Positions 35,390 through 46,383 of a stretch of DNA of 64,000 bases are shown here, piece after piece (positions within the stretch are counted from its first letter, which is position 1; each line of letters begins with the position of its first letter). Position numbers and translations under genes: made by a program. Origin of the DNA: Desulfomarina profundi (lineage in GTDB: Bacteria > Desulfobacterota > Desulfobulbia > Desulfobulbales > Desulfocapsaceae); the NCBI RefSeq assembly GCF_019703855.1, contig NZ_AP024086.1, positions 2,748,501 to 2,812,500 of the forward strand, written 5' to 3'. The notes below the pieces were generated by a model. The model did no database searches and was not told where the DNA came from. It saw only the letters and a list, made by a program, of their open reading frames with translations.

Positions 35390-35621
35390 TTACGTAACAC
35401 AAAACTCACTGTTGTAAGGCCATATTTAGAGAATTTCTTTTTCCCGGAACGAAACCATATAATACGCTGAAATAACAGATAATTAATAAAAAATAAAACC
35501 GAAACGAAAATGGCATCAAGATTGCTACAAGAAAGAGAAAAGAAACATGCCCCCCAAATCGGACGGAACTTACGCAGGTTGTATTTTCTGTCCGATTTTT
35601 TTTGCCCTTTTCAAACACCAG

Positions 35622-36439
35622 TTATTTTTGACCGATAAGAGCCCTGCGATACTCATAAAATGCTTCCCTGGAAGCAATATAGGGATCAAAGGAGAAACGC
35701 CGCAGATCTTCATACAGATTGGGATGAAGAGATAACTTATTGACTCTGGTTGTACTGTAATAGGCAAAATCAAGATATCGGTTTTCATGGAAATAGGGTA
35801 CCGGATGACTGTAGATATCCACGACAAATCCAACCGTATCCCTGCTGTTTGACGGTCCGAAAATCGGCCAGCAGAAATAAATTCCTTCCCCCACTCCCCA
35901 TTTTCCAAGCGTCTGACCGAAATCCGCTTTTTTAAACACCATATCAAACTCCTGGTCAGCCACATCCCCGAAACCGTATACACCGAGAGTGGAATTAATG
36001 ACAAACCGGCCGAGAACCCTTCCGGCACCCTCAAAATCCCCTGCAGCAATGTGTTCAACAACCGTATGGGACTACTCATATTACGAAAGAAATTACCGAT
36101 ACAGACACGAAGTTCTTCGGGCAGCACCCAGGAGTAACCATCGGAAACCGGTTTAAGAACCCAGTCATACAACTTGTCATTGAATTCAAAAAATACCCTG
36201 TTCATCGGCTCCAGGGGATCACTTATTTCAAAATCTTCCCGGTCACCGAATTCATCAAATTCATCATCGTCAACAAACTCATCAGCCAGCAGATCCGGTA
36301 CATTGTTATCTTCCGCCGCACAGGCAACAGTCGTTTGTAAAGGTGAATAAGCCAGAACAGTAAATATCAGGAAAATTCTAAAAATAAAAATCATCGCCAT
36401 CCTTTTTCTCATTGAGGTCCGCTTTATCATTTTTTCCAT
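35622..36439 (-). CDS. mlaA: MlaA (VacJ) outer-membrane lipid-asymmetry protein, frameshifted by a G-run
   Basis: A signal sequence (MAMIFIFRIFLIFTVLAYS) is followed by an acidic stretch and the MlaA core: ISDPLEPMNRVFFEFNDKLY, then VGEGIYFCWPIFGPSNSRD near the C-terminus, where family members have a Leu-Pro-x-x-Gly-Pro. The frame breaks at four G (36038-36041 as C): one extra base turns LLQGILRV into LLQGDFEGAGRVLGRF and reads on to 35622. About 272 residues result, the usual size. No lipobox Cys is evident, unlike E. coli. MlaA removes misplaced phospholipid from the outer leaflet; mlaBCDEF are not in this window. The start could be one of three ATGs. Confidence 0.82.
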
Positions 36440-36518
36440 GAGCTCCACTCTACTCCACAATTCTGACAATCTTCCTACAAAGACCATATTTTCTCATTTT
36501 ACAGCTGTAAATCCGGGT

Positions 36519-39155
36519 TCAAACCATAAACACAAACAGTCCTGCAATTATAATAAGAAACGAAAACGGAATAACAAGGGCCTTGGAACTGAGAGGGTCC
36601 CCGGCAAGCGCCCGCTCAATCACTCTGTATGTGGCATACAGGGATGCAAAAAAACCACCCATCACAGTCAAAGTTTTCAAGACAGCCGTACTGTCCTGAC
36701 TGAGCAGACGGATATGTTCATAACTGAAAGGCAGCCCGAGCCACTCCTGAACATTGGGCAGAATACGCCCGGCACCACTAACAAAAAACTCAAGGTGAAC
36801 GGCCAGATACCCACCAAGAATCATGGGAATAAAGCCATAGCCGAAAAGTGGCAGCAGCAGTTTCTTATCCATTTTGGCATAAAGACATTGCAGGCTGACC
36901 ATCAGGTAATACCCTGACTGAAAGATAAAGATACAGAAAAAAAAGATAAGAGACGCAGCAAAAAAATCAGGCACCCCGAGGCCGACTGCAGAAAAAACGG
37001 AGACCAGCCACTCTGTCAGGCGCGAAAACTCATCTTTCAGGGCAAATGGAAAAAAAATGGCGGTCATGGAAACAACAAGAAAACTGTCGGCGTTCCGGGG
37101 TGTGGCAAGGGCCCACAACTCTTCGGGAGCTAGTCGGATATTCAGTTGAATTGAGCTGTTATCACAGTTCTTTATACACTTGGCACACATGATACAGTCC
37201 CGATTGTTATCGACCAGGTATGGATGGCGGAACATGGGACAGCCGGGAACAAATGAGTCACCGGCAAAACAGGAATGATCCTTACAGCGGTTCAGACAGA
37301 CATGGCGGTTTGCGCGGAGCTCGACAATGGATGGCATGGAAAAAATCGCGTTCACAGCCCCCAGAGGACAGAGATAACGGCACCACGTCCTTCTCGAATA
37401 AAGCACACTGGAAACCAGGGAACCGATGGTTATGATCAGAATAATGCCACCGGTGAGATAAGGACTGTTGTATGCATCCCAGACAATTTCCACCCAGAAG
37501 ACAACAATACAGAGCAGGGCCATTATCCAGCCGGAGTATTTTTTTATAAAAAGAGGTGTTTTTCGGCCTGGCCTGAGCAGGTTCTGAAGAATTGTTCCGG
37601 GAACAGCCAGGGTACAGACACTGCACCAGGTTCTGGCCAGAAAAAAGAAAGAAAAAAACATGAGTGGCCAGCCAATGTACCAACCCAGGGTCAGACCGGC
37701 ATTGGACTCAGGATTCTTCGGTCCGAAAAAGAGCGTCAAAACAGTTACCAGGAGGAAAAAGCCGACTATAACCTGGGGTACCCTGGGAAAGACAGTGCTG
37801 CGAAAGAATTTCCCGACCCATGACACACGCAGGAGATTATACTCCCACTTCCCTTCAGTCTTGGGCAGACCAAGAAGAATCTGCTCCGGCAGGATTTCGT
37901 CCCTTTTGGCCAGCATCACTGCCCGACGTATGACACTCGACAGCTCGGTCAGGTTCCCGGGCCAGTCATAGTTCATAAGAATACCGAGTGTTTCCGGGCT
38001 TACTTTTGTAATTTTCTTACCGTATTCCTTGCTGTACTTCCCGAGATAAAATGAAATAAGTCGCGGAAGATCCTCCTTGTGCTGACGCAGGGGTGGAACT
38101 TCAAAGTTCTGTTTTTCAAGGAGATCCAGCATGCGGGGAATGAACTTCTCCGTACTGCTCAGAAAATACAGGGGATGGTTCGAAAGAAAAACAACCCTGG
38201 ACTGCATTGCCAGCAGACGGTCGGTATCCATATGGGTATAGGTACTGCTTTCAATCGCCTTGAGCAATCGTTCCTGCAACCCGCTCTCCATGAGATGGGC
38301 ATGGGTAAAAACCAGAGTACCACCTGAGGTCTGCTCGAGAATGCCTGCCCGACGGGCCCTTGCAAAGGGATAACCGCTCTGCTCAGTGCCGAACAGTTTT
38401 CTCTCCAGGCGCGGAGATTCAAATTCCCGCAGGTCAATCTCCCTGAACGGACCATCGGCCCTCGCCGACTGGAGATGAATCTCCCTGGCAATAATTGACT
38501 TGCCGGTTCCGGTTTCCCCCACCAGAAGGTACGGTGCATCGTTTGCAGCGAAGCGGTCGATCACCTCCTGGGTCTTTCTAGCTGTCCGGGATTGTTTAAT
38601 CTCTTCATTTTTCCTGTCAATCAATCGACGGAGACGGGTAGCAGAAAACGATTTGTCCTTGAAAAGAATAACATCATCCGCACCCGAATCAACACCACCA
38701 CCACGTTCTTCCCCCGCGGTATCCATCTGATCACGAAAGGCCACCCGCAGCCGTTCCGCCAGGAGAGCGTCAAGCCGGTTGTGGATTCCCGGGTTTGCCA
38801 GGAGAGACAGCTTGAAATAGCGCTTGTCAAAACAGATTACAACCAGATCGCACAACGCCCGTACCCCCACCGAGCGTGGTTTACCAGTGAGAATACCGGT
38901 TTCGCCGAAATGTCCACCTGGACCTATCCGACCAACGATACGGCCGACACCATCGTCACGGGTAAGCACAAGCTCAGCTTCACCAACAGCTATCACATGG
39001 AAAATATCGCTGGTGTCACCCTCCCTGTACACATACTGTCCCTGGGAAAAAAACTGCACCCGGGCCAGTTCCGCATAGGCCGCAAGTTCATGCTCCCCGA
39101 TGTTCTGAAAGAGAACAGAGCGCTGCAGATTTTTGACGATATCCTCTCGTTTCAT
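36519..39155 (-). CDS. cNMP-binding / sigma-54-type AAA+ / NosR-NapH-like 4Fe-4S membrane fusion protein
   Basis: An 878-residue fusion. Residues ~5-140 form a cyclic-nucleotide-binding domain (GQYVYREGDTSD, GHFGETGILTGKPR). Residues ~170-430 resemble the AAA+ domain of sigma-54 activators, with Walker A GETGTGKS (213-220) and YDWPGNLTEL (396-405). However, the GAFTGA loop is replaced by EQSGYPFARA, Walker B reads GGTLVFTHAH without its acidic pair, and there is no helix-turn-helix. From ~460 on it is a polytopic membrane protein of the NosR/NapH type: Cys-x2-Cys at 511-514, Cys-x3-Cys-Pro at 592-597, and two likely 4Fe-4S sets (Cys620, 624, 629, 639 and Cys654, 657, 660, 664). It probably senses or passes electrons and signals by nucleotide-dependent contacts; a transcriptional role is doubtful. 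Confidence 0.85.
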   Translation of the reverse strand: MKREDIVKNLQRSVLFQNIGEHELAAYAELARVQFFSQGQYVYREGDTSDIFHVIAVGEAELVLTRDDGVGRIVGRIGPGGHFGETGILTGKPRSVGVRALCDLVVICFDKRYFKLSLLANPGIHNRLDALLAERLRVAFRDQMDTAGEERGGGVDSGADDVILFKDKSFSATRLRRLIDRKNEEIKQSRTARKTQEVIDRFAANDAPYLLVGETGTGKSIIAREIHLQSARADGPFREIDLREFESPRLERKLFGTEQSGYPFARARRAGILEQTSGGTLVFTHAHLMESGLQERLLKAIESSTYTHMDTDRLLAMQSRVVFLSNHPLYFLSSTEKFIPRMLDLLEKQNFEVPPLRQHKEDLPRLISFYLGKYSKEYGKKITKVSPETLGILMNYDWPGNLTELSSVIRRAVMLAKRDEILPEQILLGLPKTEGKWEYNLLRVSWVGKFFRSTVFPRVPQVIVGFFLLVTVLTLFFGPKNPESNAGLTLGWYIGWPLMFFSFFFLARTWCSVCTLAVPGTILQNLLRPGRKTPLFIKKYSGWIMALLCIVVFWVEIVWDAYNSPYLTGGIILIITIGSLVSSVLYSRRTWCRYLCPLGAVNAIFSMPSIVELRANRHVCLNRCKDHSCFAGDSFVPGCPMFRHPYLVDNNRDCIMCAKCIKNCDNSSIQLNIRLAPEELWALATPRNADSFLVVSMTAIFFPFALKDEFSRLTEWLVSVFSAVGLGVPDFFAASLIFFFCIFIFQSGYYLMVSLQCLYAKMDKKLLLPLFGYGFIPMILGGYLAVHLEFFVSGAGRILPNVQEWLGLPFSYEHIRLLSQDSTAVLKTLTVMGGFFASLYATYRVIERALAGDPLSSKALVIPFSFLIIIAGLFVFMV

Positions 39156-39183: not shown

Positions 39184-40100
39184 TTATATCTGCAGATAAG
39201 TCTCAATCACATCAGCCAGCAGGGGGCCACCGAATAGACATCCAGGATGTCATTGCTTTCCCTCCCGGGGAAGGTATCGGAACCGATCACCTTTGAGATG
39301 GGACTGGCCCTGAACTTTTCCAAGGATTTACCGGCCATAATCAAGTGAGTGGCAAGGGCCACCACATCCGCAGCCCCGGCTTCCAGACAGCGCTCAGCCG
39401 TCTGGATAATAGATCCGCCGGTACGAATCATATCATCACAGATTATGGCCGTCTTCCCCTTGACTACATTGGAAACCTGGCTGACAATGGTTTTGTCCGT
39501 ATCGTACCGGTCCTTGTCCGCCGCCGTGTGAGGGCAGTTCAGAAAGCTCGCCAGGCGGGCCACCCGCTTGGAAAAGCCGTAATCAGGGGATACAAGCACG
39601 TAGTCCCTGAGACCGCTTGCCTGGATTTTTTTCACCACCAGGTTGTCGGTCCAGATATGTTTGGCCCTGATCTCCCCGGCATGGGCATGGAGAACCGCCT
39701 CAGAATGAAGGTCAACGAAGGCGACGAAGTTGGGTCGGGCCCGGAAAATCTGTCTGGTCCTGGTTACACCCTTGGGGATCTCATTGGACCCCGGCTTGGC
39801 CCGTTCCATGGTGGAATATCCAAGGTACGGAATAATCACATTGATGGAAGCGGCATTCCAGTAGCGTCCTCCGGATATGAGATCCAACAACTCCTGATGG
39901 GAACTGTCGTTATGGGTTGCTCCCAAAATGATCAGATCTTTTCCGGAAACAGGTTCAGGAAAAGCATGGTAGACCTCGCCGTCGGCAAACACTTTTCGCT
40001 CCATTTCCGTAAACCGGATCCACAATCTTTCCGCTAGCTTATTAGCCAGATCCGTGGAAGCCTGATTTGCCACAAGGACAATATTTTCCTTCACCGTCAT
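39184..40100 (-). CDS. prs: Ribose-phosphate pyrophosphokinase, frameshifted near the end
   Basis: It makes PRPP from ribose 5-phosphate and ATP. The flexible loop region and PRPP site are visible (KVFADGEVYHAF, VDLHSEAVLHAHAG, IICDDMIRTGGSIIQ). As given it ends ...DVYSVAPCWLM at 39207. One extra base at five G (39222-39226) restores SVAPLLADVIETYLQI with a stop at 39184, a normal C-terminus and about 304 residues. It belongs to the shorter, divergent class of PRPP synthetases. It lies 24 nt after leuB and 28 nt before the fusion-protein gene, so all three are probably co-transcribed. Confidence 0.88.
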
Positions 40101-40124: not shown

Positions 40125-41252
<1,128 letters not shown>

Positions 41253-41276
41253 GTTTATTAGATCAATCATCGTATT

Positions 41277-41966
41277 TTAAACATCTTTCTCTCCCGCCGA
41301 ACCCGCAACAGTTGTATACACCAGAAATGCCCGCTCGGCACCGGAAAACGGCAGTGTTATTTCAACATTTTTCCTGAGGTTATATAATTTCTTCATTTTT
41401 CCACTAACAAGAGCAACCTCTTCCCGCCACCTGGGACCTTTCATGCAGATAATCTTTGCACCACCGGCAGAAAATCGCTGCACCATCCTCAGAAACATAT
41501 CAATATCGGATACGGCTCTGGAGGTGATATCGGTAAAGTCATGGTTTTCCCCCAACCTCTGTTCATCCTCAATGCGACAATCAAAAATGGAAACGGACTG
41601 CAACCCGAGAACACGGACAATATGATGGAGAAAAAACACCCGTTTTTTTCGTGGCTCCACAAGGGTCAGATCGATATCCGGTCTTACCGCTTTACAGACA
41701 AGACCCGGAAAACCGGCACCGGTACCCACGTCAAGCAAACGGCACTTCTCTGATTCGAGCAGGGGCAGAAGGGCCAGGGAATCGAGGAAATGATTTTCGA
41801 TAATCTGTTCATCACTACTGGTTCGGGATATAAGATTAACTTTACTGCTCCACTTCCGCAACTCATCAAAATAGAGCTCCAGCCTTTTACAACCATCACG
41901 GTCAACGTCCAGATCCAGGAGAACCAGACCCTCCTGCAACCGATCTCTGAAGCTACTTCCCATCAT
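41277..41966 (-). CDS. rsmG: 16S rRNA m7G527 methyltransferase
   Basis: A 229-residue SAM-dependent methyltransferase. Motif I is LLDVGTGAGFPGLVCK, preceded by NHFLDSLALLPLL, and DITSRAVSDID gives the family's conserved Ser-Arg-Ala. RsmG methylates G527 of 16S rRNA; its loss gives low-level streptomycin resistance. The start lies inside the last 14 nt of hisD, so translation is coupled. The first two codons are both ATG and the true start could be either. Confidence 0.94.
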   Translation of the reverse strand: MMGSSFRDRLQEGLVLLDLDVDRDGCKRLELYFDELRKWSSKVNLISRTSSDEQIIENHFLDSLALLPLLESEKCRLLDVGTGAGFPGLVCKAVRPDIDLTLVEPRKKRVFFLHHIVRVLGLQSVSIFDCRIEDEQRLGENHDFTDITSRAVSDIDMFLRMVQRFSAGGAKIICMKGPRWREEVALVSGKMKKLYNLRKNVEITLPFSGAERAFLVYTTVAGSAGEKDV

Positions 41967-43266
41967 TTAACCTGGCAGTAACAGAGGCCCCGTGGGCCGT
42001 CAGCCCTTCAAGTTCAGCCAACCTGCGGATATGATCACCATCCGTCTTGAGAGCTGCCTGTGAATAACTGATGATGGAACTTTTCTTCAAAAAGGTTTCC
42101 ACCCCGAGAGCTGAGGCAAACCTGGCAGTGCCCATGGTGGGCAGGACATGATTCGGTCCGGCTAAATAATCCCCTGCAGCCTCCGGTGTATGATGGCCGA
42201 GAAAAATTGCCCCGGCGTGACGGACATGGGGAACCTGGGCCCACGGATCGGCAATCATCAGTTCAAGATGCTCGATGGCAATGCTGTTCGCGATGTCAAT
42301 GGCCTCCTCCAGACTGTCGACAACCAGCATGACCCCCCTGTCCCGAAGAGCTTTTTCGGCTATCTCCCGTCGGGACAGCGCAGGCAGTTGACGGTCAAGT
42401 TCTGCCAGGACTTCGCTGCAGAACGTTTTTTCCGTAGTGATCAATATTGCCAGGGCCAGAGGATCGTGCTCCGCCTGGGCCAGCATATCCGCTGCGGCCG
42501 CTGCCGGATCAGCACTATCGTCAGCCACGATCAACACCTCGGATGGCCCGGCAATCATATCAATACGAACCATACCGGAAACCTGTCGTTTCGCCTCCGT
42601 GACATACTGGTTACCGGGACCGACAATAACATCCACCCCCGGGATAGTCTCAGTGCCATAGGCCAGAGCGGCAATAGCCCAGGCGGACCCGGCCTTGTAA
42701 ACCTCGACGATACCCACTTCCTGGGCGGCAACGAGCAGATATGGATTTATACTGCCGTCGGCTGCTGGCGGTGTCACCATGACCCGCCTGTTTACCCCCG
42801 CAATGGCCGCCGGAATACCATTCATAAGAACAGATGAAACAAGAGGAGTGGAGCCACTCTGCCCACCGGGAACATACAATCCGGCAGAATCCACAGGCCT
42901 CACAAGTCTGCCAACAATGGTTCCGTCCTCTCTGGTCTGCAGCCAGGAATCTTCCATCTCCCGCTCATGAAAACTCTCGATCCTGTCAATGGCCACAGAA
43001 AGCGTTTCCTGAAATTCCGGCGTTACCTTATCGTAGGCCTCCTGCAACTCCAGGAAATCGACCTGCAAGCCCGAAACAGTCAGTTCGGGGGCATCATATC
43101 GGCGTCCATAATCGACCACCGCTTTATCTTTTTTTTCTCGAACCGCCTGTAATATCTCTTCCACTACCTGCTGACAGGAAGTGTCGGCAGCCTGGAAACG
43201 ATCGAGCAGATCCGCAACCACACCTTCACCGGCAGAAGTTGCAAGATCAACTGGTGTAATAAGCAT
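41953..43266 (-). CDS. hisD: Histidinol dehydrogenase
   Basis: A 437-residue zinc enzyme for the last two steps of histidine synthesis. Conserved parts include VDSAGLYVPGGQ, VAGPGNQYVTEAKRQV-like (VGPGNQYVTEAKRQV), IDMIAGPSEVLIVADD, the catalytic Glu-His in SIAIEHLELM, and GPNHVLPTMGTARF. It is complete. AAGGAAAATT precedes the ATG at 43266. Other his genes are not nearby. It overlaps rsmG at the end, and a 23-nt repeat precedes it. Confidence 0.97.
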   Translation of the reverse strand: MLITPVDLATSAGEGVVADLLDRFQAADTSCQQVVEEILQAVREKKDKAVVDYGRRYDAPELTVSGLQVDFLELQEAYDKVTPEFQETLSVAIDRIESFHEREMEDSWLQTREDGTIVGRLVRPVDSAGLYVPGGQSGSTPLVSSVLMNGIPAAIAGVNRRVMVTPPAADGSINPYLLVAAQEVGIVEVYKAGSAWAIAALAYGTETIPGVDVIVGPGNQYVTEAKRQVSGMVRIDMIAGPSEVLIVADDSADPAAAAADMLAQAEHDPLALAILITTEKTFCSEVLAELDRQLPALSRREIAEKALRDRGVMLVVDSLEEAIDIANSIAIEHLELMIADPWAQVPHVRHAGAIFLGHHTPEAAGDYLAGPNHVLPTMGTARFASALGVETFLKKSSIISYSQAALKTDGDHIRRLAELEGLTAHGASVTARLNDGK

Positions 43267-45316: not shown

Positions 45317-46383
45317 ATGGATTTTGAACCGAAATGGATTGCCTGGGAAATAACACGGCGCTGTAATCTCAAATGTGTACATTGCCGTTCTTCATCAGAA
45401 CTGGAGGCACGAGAACACCCGGATTTCACCTTTGATGAGGCAAAGGCAATCATGGATTCCATTGGTTCCTATGCCAGCCCCGTCCTCGTTCTGTCCGGGG
45501 GGGAACCGCTGCTGCGTGAAGATGTTTTTGAAATAGCCGAATACGGGGGAGCCAAAGGGTTTCGCATGTGCCTTGCCACCAACGGCACCCTTGTCACCGA
45601 TGAGATCTGCCAGAAAATCAAGGATGTGGATATCAAGATGGTCTCTTTAAGCCTGGACGGGGCAAAGGCGGAAACCCACGACAATTTTCGCAATCAGAAA
45701 GGGGCTTTTGACGGCACCATGAATGCCATTGCCCTCTTTAAAAAATATAATATTCCCTTTCTTATCAACTCTTCCTTTACCATCCGTAACAGAAAGGAGG
45801 TTCCCGAAATATATCAACTCGTCAAAAAACTGGGAGCCACCGCCTGGTATATGTTCATGATTGTCCCCACGGGCCGGGGGAAGATATCATGGAGGAACTT
45901 ATCCCGGAAGAAATTTACGATGAGATGCTGGAATGGCACTATGAAATGGAAAAAAACGAGGATGAAATCCTTATGCGCCCCACCTGCGCTCCCCACTACT
46001 ATCGTATCGTCCGCCAGAAGGCCAAAGAAGGAGGAGAGCAGTTCAAACGCCGGAACCTGAAGTTCTCCACCGGGGGATCCAAAGGGTGCCTGGCGGGACA
46101 GCTTATCTGCCTGATTGATGTGGACGGAGAGGTACTGCCCTGCTCCTATTTCCCGAAATCAGCCGGTAATGTCAAGAAGACACCGTTTAAAACTATCTGG
46201 GAAGAATCTGAACTTTTTCTTCAACTCCGGGATTTTAAAGGGTATAAAGATAACTGTGGTCAGTGCGAATATGTCAACGTCTGCGGGGGTTGCCGGGCCA
46301 GGTCCTATGCCATGACCGGAGATTTTCTTGCCCAGGAGCCTTTCTGTAGCTATATTCCCGGAAAACTGAGAAAAAAAACCTGA
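45317..46383 (+). CDS. Radical SAM/SPASM protein beside hemE (AhbD/NirJ-like), frameshifted by a G-run
   Basis: The SAM-cluster motif is CNLKCVHC (Cys-x3-Cys-x2-Cys), followed by [15 protein letters not shown]-terminal SPASM-like Cys set ([20 protein letters not shown], then [13 protein letters not shown]) would bind extra 4Fe-4S clusters. The frame breaks at five G (45876-45880): one more base joins MIVPTGRG to [16 protein letters not shown] and reads to 46383, about 355 residues. AhbD and NirJ of heme and heme-d1 synthesis have this build, and hemE follows 48 nt later. PqqE-like peptide modification is the main alternative; no precursor peptide was seen. Confidence 0.72.

Follow-up and report, generated by a model that had tools for sequence, protein, structure and literature searches.

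What becomes of a sigma-54-activator ATPase when its motor is lost and a membrane iron-sulfur module takes the place of its DNA-binding part? This question is raised by a gene of Desulfomarina profundi located in a 64,000-nucleotide stretch of contig NZ_AP024086.1 (positions 2,748,501 to 2,812,500 of the forward strand), which was analysed as a whole and is called the window hereafter. The encoded protein, referred to as the query, combines a cyclic-nucleotide-binding (CNB) domain, a degenerate AAA+ domain and a NapH-like polyferredoxin module. This three-part fusion, proposed in a first-pass annotation of the window, is borne out, since the gene forms one intact frame and all its Pfam domains score above cut-off. 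We propose, giving it an even chance of being right, that the query is a NapH-like membrane electron-transfer protein whose activity is controlled by signals from the cytoplasm, relayed by a dead AAA+ scaffold. Its elements, in window coordinates, are the following (TM, transmembrane helix).

36519..39155, minus strand: complete gene, 878 aa, ATG start, encoding CNB domain, pseudo-sigma54-AAA domain and NapH-like polyferredoxin membrane module
38811..39056, minus strand: CNB domain, residues 34-115, cassette residues E85 and R94 present (Pfam, alignment, fold match)
38088..38597, minus strand: degenerate sigma-54-activator AAA+ core, residues 187-356 (Pfam, motif counts, fold match)
38496..38519, minus strand: Walker A GETGTGKS, residues 213-220, intact in the query (sequence)
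38352..38393, minus strand: loop 1 / GAFTGA position, residues 255-268, reading FGTEQSGYPFARAR, motif lost (alignment)
38295..38321, minus strand: Walker B position, residues 279-287, GTLVFTHAH, acids lost (alignment)
37872..38087, minus strand: AAA lid, residues 357-428, sensor II Arg lost, WPGN kept (Pfam, alignment)
37614..37625, minus strand: C511xxC514, after predicted TM2, predicted cytoplasmic side (alignment, model)
37365..37382, minus strand: C592xxxC596P, after predicted TM4, predicted cytoplasmic side (alignment, model)
37164..37298, minus strand: two predicted [4Fe-4S] sites, C620x3C624x4C629x9C639P and C654x2C657x2C660x3C664 (alignment)
36525..37094, minus strand: five further predicted TM helices within residues 688-877, past the NapH-aligned stretch (model)

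The gene (36519-39155, minus strand) is a single uninterrupted reading frame, and four Pfam families match its product above their curated cut-offs, namely cNMP_binding (residues 34-115, 6e-17), Sigma54_activat (residues 187-339, 1.5e-26), AAA_lid_14 (residues 357-426, 2e-18) and Fer4_5 (residues 569-606, 2e-06, 28.1 bits vs a cut-off of 22). CNB, AAA, lid and Fer4_5 were likewise found by Pfam within a single protein in all 26 members of one alignment. No helix-turn-helix (HTH) family was detected by Pfam along the 878-residue query, in 43 AAA-fused family proteins (sets of 26, 7 and 10) or in 20 fused or module proteins beyond the 26-member set. The query genome (4.3 Mb) carries 1 full-length copy; its other 44 match rows are partial and mostly cover the AAA+ domain. 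Searching databases for this domain order, we recovered matches to the query in 42 of 97 genomes, the query's own included (E <= 1e-60), and the same domain set in Nitrospirae and Candidatus Scalindua metagenome-assembled genomes (MAGs). Among 59 match rows, 47 extend from residue 11 or before to residue 871 or beyond in a single frame, and none contains an internal stop. The remaining 12 are shorter and comprise contig ends, more distant members, G034, which lies in two pieces on two contigs, and the relative G053, whose gene is broken across two adjacent frames. The 54 aligned sequences fall into two main subfamilies, with about 49-72% and 41-46% identity to the query, and a distant group (24-29%); both main subfamilies coexist in several genomes.

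The state of the AAA+ domain was assessed at nine sites: the Walker A lysine, three GAFTGA positions, the two Walker B acids, the two arginine fingers and the sensor II arginine. Among 80 distinct members, none of these sites is intact in 14, one in 36, two in 25 and three in 5, gaps being scored as not intact in this tally and omitted from the per-site counts. The query keeps 2/9, and seven ordinary activators of its genome, chosen as the best-matching ones and not as the whole set, keep 9/9 each. We looked for orthologues retaining GAFTGA or an HTH; T or S followed by G occurs at the motif in 0/80 members, vs 7/7 and 25/25 control activators, and an HTH in 0/43 AAA-fused proteins. The Walker B D is present in 3/79 members and the E in 1/79, both together in none; the first arginine finger persists in 2/79, the second in 0/79 and the sensor II Arg in 4/80. 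The query itself lacks both Walker B acids, both fingers and the sensor II Arg. The best kept catalytic site is the Walker A lysine (45 of 77 readable members), which is otherwise mostly changed from K to R, Arg standing at this column in 29/81 rows; the perfect Walker A of the query is not found in most relatives. In L083 and L084 this lysine lies outside the aligned piece (it is seen in the full sequence of L083), L191 is nearly all gaps, and L078, identical to L063 over the AAA domain, was dropped from the site counts. Loss of Ser/Thr after the lysine was considered as a further sign of damage and abandoned, as Glu stands there in 5/7 ordinary activators; only the lysine was counted. The roles of the AAA+ motifs other than sensor II follow the review PMC7175178. 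Proline occupies the GAFTGA Thr position in 42/81 rows; according to Francke et al. (PMC3162934), a damaged GAFTGA marks activator relatives no longer using sigma-54, with Pro favoured at the Thr position. The column of the lost Walker B glutamate holds His in 42/81 rows and Asn in 24/81, a patterned replacement and not random drift.

The predicted AAA+ structure nevertheless keeps the activator fold, with Z of about 22-23 to NtrC1, DmpR, FleQ and PspF. The absence of GAFTGA (GYPFAR in the query), of the Walker B acids (GTLVFTHAH) and of any DNA-binding family, noticed at first pass, is thus corroborated. Judging from these motifs, the AAA+ domain is catalytically dead, and a true sigma-54 activator is rejected, given the loss of GAFTGA, Walker B acids, fingers and sensor II and the lack of an HTH. 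With the Walker A lysine kept in only 45/77 and hardly any Walker B acid, finger or sensor II Arg left, ATP binding and reading are not what the family conserves.

The AAA core is under purifying selection and the domain is not decaying. Indeed, the nonsynonymous rate (dN) is well below the synonymous rate (dS) in 8 of 9 close pairs, the ninth being without usable dS; the pairs were hand-picked and treated by the Nei-Gojobori method, and several dS values exceed 1, hence the estimates are rough. Mean pairwise identity among 17 clade-1 proteins is 0.616 in the CNB domain, 0.363 in the linker, 0.560 in the AAA core, 0.777 in the lid, 0.726 in the NapH-like core and 0.569 in the last helices; no other part of the cytoplasmic half is as conserved as the lid. 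The control, 25 orthologues of a single true activator with at least 71% identity to the search query and less divergence overall, shows equal conservation of core (0.854) and lid (0.848), and the five checked motifs are intact in 25/25. Since the lid exceeds the core in the family and equals it in the true activator, the constraint appears, from these sequence comparisons, to have left the ATP site for the lid, to which the membrane module is joined.

The eight cluster cysteines and the CxxC and CxxxCP pairs of the membrane module, also recognized at first pass, are all present in the query, and these twelve residues are invariant in 54/54 aligned family sequences, query included, as well as in 26/26 rows of an alignment that takes in standalone modules. 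Nine helices are predicted, with the N-terminus and the twelve cysteines on the cytoplasmic side, from the helices of the model and the excess of Lys/Arg in alternate loops; the nine were hand-chosen from the predicted model, and the eighth is not clear in a hydropathy scan alone. The models were built on 11 and 12 sequences, the former having a mean predicted local distance difference test score (pLDDT) of 76.6. The alignment of E. coli NapH with the module covers TM2 through the second cluster (44.7 bits), and the Fer4_5 match, together with homology over helices, pair motifs and clusters, places it in the NapH-like superfamily (PF12801). The NCBIfam model napH_ (TIGR02163) gives 43.8 bits, below its curated cut-off of 213.05. 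Only the second pair of the query fits the CX3CP motif, the first being CX2C; E. coli NapH has CX3CP twice. No family that binds flavin mononucleotide (FMN) was found by Pfam in the query or in 26 members. An ordinary NapH was rejected on score, motifs and gene context. According to PMC8238504 and PMC5928378, NapH-like proteins carry electrons through the membrane, with quinol as the probable donor in some cases, and the pair motifs are important for NapH and NosR.

At the other end of the protein, the modelled CNB fold resembles the cAMP-bound GlxR/CRP domains and the CNB domains of the cyclic-nucleotide-dependent kinases PKG and PKA. By analogy with CRP and PKA, E85 and R94 of the query would be the phosphate-binding cassette Glu and Arg. 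E85 is found in 53/54 sequences, the remaining row being a gap, and the query genome encodes one class III cyclase.

Comparison with more distant relatives reveals which parts of this architecture are exchangeable. The matches listed by an organism-named scan include proteins of Desulforhopalus sp. IMCC35007, a Desulfobulbaceae MAG, a Nitrospirae MAG, two Candidatus Scalindua MAGs, a Desulfomonile-labelled MAG and a Desulfohalobiaceae MAG. Pfam detects CNB and AAA in one protein in the Nitrospirae, Scalindua, Desulfomonile-labelled and Desulfohalobiaceae MAGs, and the two Candidatus Scalindua proteins have a GAF domain placed between them. Fer4_5 is recognized in the Nitrospirae, Scalindua and Desulfomonile-labelled proteins, and the Desulfohalobiaceae module is visible by alignment only. 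A profile of the membrane module matched 60 of 395 genomes of the phylum, the query's own included (E <= 1e-40). The 116 distinct module sequences comprise 85 with an AAA domain, 26 standalone and 5 with other N-termini; three of these five were scanned with Pfam, giving cytochrome c in L195, YHS in L197 and Fer4_5 only in the third. Some AAA-fused relatives have acquired extra domains, namely GAF (L083, L084, L188) and FHA (L190, L194), as seen by Pfam. The AAA label needs two changes on a tree of the module, which may reflect a single gain followed by a single loss leading to 18 standalone proteins; the tree is a quick build with SH-like approximate likelihood ratio support (SH-aLRT) only, a midpoint root and several long branches. 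No output domain was found by Pfam in the query or in the family proteins scanned.

Genes for signal makers occasionally lie next to the family. Directly downstream of the member at L086 (7410-13850) lies a fusion of a class III nucleotidyl cyclase with AAA_16/TPR, and another class III cyclase is divergent beside L208. At L190 (5766-10740), an FHA-CNB-pseudoAAA-polyferredoxin protein is followed by a Ser/Thr kinase with TPR repeats, possibly a phosphorylation-controlled version. Ser/Thr kinases are also directly downstream of L191 and L193, where contig ends cut both genes and hide the FHA region, and further kinases lie at greater distance at L199 and L215.

A plausible course of events can be outlined from these elements. 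A ligand, in the query most simply cyclic AMP (cAMP) or cyclic GMP (cGMP), would bind the CNB domain; the change would be relayed through the dead AAA+ domain, retained as a scaffold that is rigid or forms oligomers, and mainly through its lid, which continues directly into the first transmembrane helix; and the exchange of electrons between the quinone pool and a partner in the cytoplasm would thereby be opened or closed. Topology, cluster binding, quinone chemistry, ligand identity and signal direction are all inferred. The membrane module would be the output since the receivers are cytoplasmic, signal makers are occasional neighbours, no output domain was seen and the module is used elsewhere without receivers. 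The initial alternative, a redox enzyme under the control of a ligand in the cytoplasm, gains support from these data. More tentatively, and with distinctly less than even confidence, the family could represent a class of electron-transfer proteins controlled by second messengers or phosphorylation, in which an activator AAA+ motor, gutted of its catalytic and sigma-54-contact sites, would act through its lid as the mechanical link from CNB, GAF or FHA receivers to a quinone/Fe-S core.

Several observations weigh against a gated electron-transfer protein. The family is patchy though conserved, with 55 of the 97 genomes, two of the same genus among them, lacking a match at E <= 1e-60. The position of R94 holds R in only 21/54 sequences, with H in 18, N in 9 and Q in 6; since the cassette Arg is so often replaced, the ligand may differ among members. 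Gating by cyclic nucleotides, as first suggested, therefore stays plausible for the query, where the modelled fold, E85 and R94 make cAMP or cGMP binding reasonable, and is not assured for the family. The models, derived from 11 and 12 sequences, fall below a pLDDT of 50 in parts of the cluster region. No solved structure matched the module (Foldseek with the module alone, 0 at E <= 0.001; VIA-align Z <=5.0), and its profile found only weak partial ferredoxin-type and Sec61 matches among solved-structure sequences, the best at 5e-4 over 20 residues. This blank is an absence of match and not proof of a new fold; since the fold search gave no solved-structure match, the quinone chemistry is argued from sequence homology to NapH. 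The query shows neither a partner enzyme nor an FMN domain nor a periplasmic cofactor. Its neighbours are amino-acid and phosphoribosyl pyrophosphate (PRPP) genes and not redox genes, and only two clade-1 members (L063, L067) adjoin a [NiFe] hydrogenase. Finally, cyclases neighbour 2/100 loci and kinases 5/100, three of the kinases belonging to one lineage and none lying at the FHA form L194; a single cyclase and a single kinase served as BLAST queries for these 100 loci, some of which represent one place counted twice, and the counts are pointers only.

Among the alternatives, the one that survives best is a membrane redox or quinone sensor, in which the Fe-S module senses and the pseudo-AAA/CNB half acts as output by sequestering or docking partners such as genuine activators or a kinase, the cyclic nucleotide serving as a second input. 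CNB and AAA do form a signalling set, the FHA form L190 adjoins a Ser/Thr kinase, about 40 further AAA-domain match rows of the query genome, mostly activators, could be partners, and retention of a ring-forming domain would be explained. On the other hand, scanned members have no output domain, the added domains are receivers (GAF, FHA), and the module is used without the cytoplasmic half elsewhere, once with cytochrome c, which suits an electron-transfer device more. The idea of a sensor as output, advanced at first pass, is weakened by this lack of an output domain, by the added inputs of some relatives and by the few cyclase and kinase neighbours, and we consider it possible and rather unlikely.

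An improbable alternative is that the AAA domain binds ATP or ADP without hydrolysis, so that the energy state gates the membrane part. The perfect GETGTGKS of the query and the lysine of 45/77 members speak for it, but Arg replaces this lysine in 29/81 rows and Walker B, fingers and sensor II are gone, so that such a switch is not family-wide. The disabled activator ATPase proposed initially is thus supported; its action as a nucleotide-bound switch is possible in the query but is not a family trait; an ATP-bound switch may exist only in members with an intact Walker A.

We give similarly little credence to a role in assembly only, with CNB and pseudo-AAA as a structural oligomerisation platform that senses no ligand. 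The variable CNB arginine, the dead AAA site and the conserved lid would all suit such a platform, but the retention of E85 in 53/54 sequences, the receiver domains added in some members and the few cyclase and kinase neighbours do not. An artefact, either a sequencing error that joined two genes or a decaying pseudogene, has a negligible probability even though two other genes of the window are split between frames, and a hidden frameshift or chance fusion, which was looked for, is rejected, since 47/59 rows are near full length in one frame, 26/26 members carry all domains and dN/dS is low.

Each part of the query has known counterparts. With NapH, NosR and RdhC (PceC) it shares two helix pairs, each followed by a cysteine pair, and then two [4Fe-4S] motifs. 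It differs from this group by five more predicted helices, an N-terminal signalling half, a location away from nap, nos or pce genes, a first pair of CX2C instead of CX3CP and a first cluster of C-x3-C-x4-C-x9-CP, both cluster motifs of E. coli NapH being regular. Its score is far under the NapH cut-off, and it lacks the extracytoplasmic FMN-binding domain of NosR and RdhC. The AAA+ core and lid fold are shared with sigma-54 activators, with clear sequence homology, but the family lacks GAFTGA, Walker B acids, fingers, sensor II and HTH and is joined to a membrane module. VpsR, TyrR, DhaR and HupR belong to the same domain lineage and, as described in PMC3162934, have a damaged GAFTGA with no or doubtful sigma-54 use; these proteins regulate transcription, whereas no DNA-binding part was found in the family, whose ATPase site is also dead. 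The CNB fold is that of CRP/FNR-type regulators and protein kinases, but is coupled here to a dead AAA+ domain and a membrane redox module and not to an HTH or kinase. The same module with all 12 cysteine columns occurs as a standalone protein, lacking CNB and AAA, at L120 of Desulfosporosinus hippei. No paper on this domain combination was found in the open-access PubMed Central literature. What appears new is the attachment of a regulatory half derived from a dead activator to a NapH-like electron-transfer protein.

If the gated electron-transfer reading holds, a sigma-54-activator domain would operate outside transcription and without ATPase activity, providing a clean natural case in which to ask what the AAA+ fold does with its motor off. 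Cyclic-nucleotide or kinase signalling would be wired directly to membrane electron transfer in anaerobes, and cAMP-type gating of electron flow would act post-translationally in anaerobic bacteria, including relatives of sulfate reducers and Candidatus Scalindua, which are anammox bacteria. Furthermore, annotation from the AAA+ domain only would label the family proteins as transcriptional regulators, contrary to the present evidence.

The genes upstream of the query are organized as follows.

39207..40100, minus strand: second, divergent ribose-phosphate diphosphokinase (prs-like), directly upstream, 51-base gap (Pfam, NCBI family match)
40125..43266, minus strand: leuB, rsmG, hisD and the rest of the clade-1 upstream run (Pfam, locus comparison)

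The prs-like protein scores 61 bits to PF13793, vs 188 for the other prs copy located elsewhere in the genome, and passes the NCBI ribose-phosphate diphosphokinase cut-off. Clade 1 lies downstream of a hisD-rsmG-leuB-prs run, a prs-like gene being directly upstream in 21/27 loci (13/17 with long flanks and 8/10 with short flanks, leaving out L017, L032 and L037). No prs-like cluster member was found in 18 clade-2 loci, and since it is absent there, the run says little about mechanism. The location beside prs and leuB reported at first pass is thus correct for the query and clade 1, but does not extend beyond that one clade. At L063 (311-4389), [NiFe]-hydrogenase small and large subunits and hypD stand instead of the his/leu/prs run (Pfam); at L067 (9183-14624), the run is replaced by [NiFe]-hydrogenase subunits, recognized by clustering with L063, and an FAD/4Fe-4S gene. 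A gene of the hydrogenase large-subunit cluster is also found near the distant member L061 (clustering). Twenty neighbour proteins of clade-2 and distant members are mixed: RtcB, aminotransferases, RNase H, NifU-like, outer-membrane efflux, response regulator, sigma-54 activator, helicase, TPR/TonB receptor-like, histidine kinase, HD domain, cyclase, pyruvate phosphate dikinase, ABC ATPase and several without family. Neighbouring genes were called by a crude open-reading-frame picker, which failed to call even the family member at L022 and L043.

Two genes of the window are interrupted. Downstream of the query, the next gene, mlaA, is split into 35570-36487 and 35622-35963 (both minus strand), its front and rear matching MlaA in different frames, and a radical SAM/SPASM gene is split over the overlapping frames 45317-46060 and 45889-46383 (both plus strand). 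Since both genes are split between frames, the assembly may carry insertion-deletion errors in this region. Outside the window, the standalone module at L120 (7908-9924) adjoins an FtrD-like gene (PF10080), a neighbour whose family assignment hints at a metal-handling role for this form.

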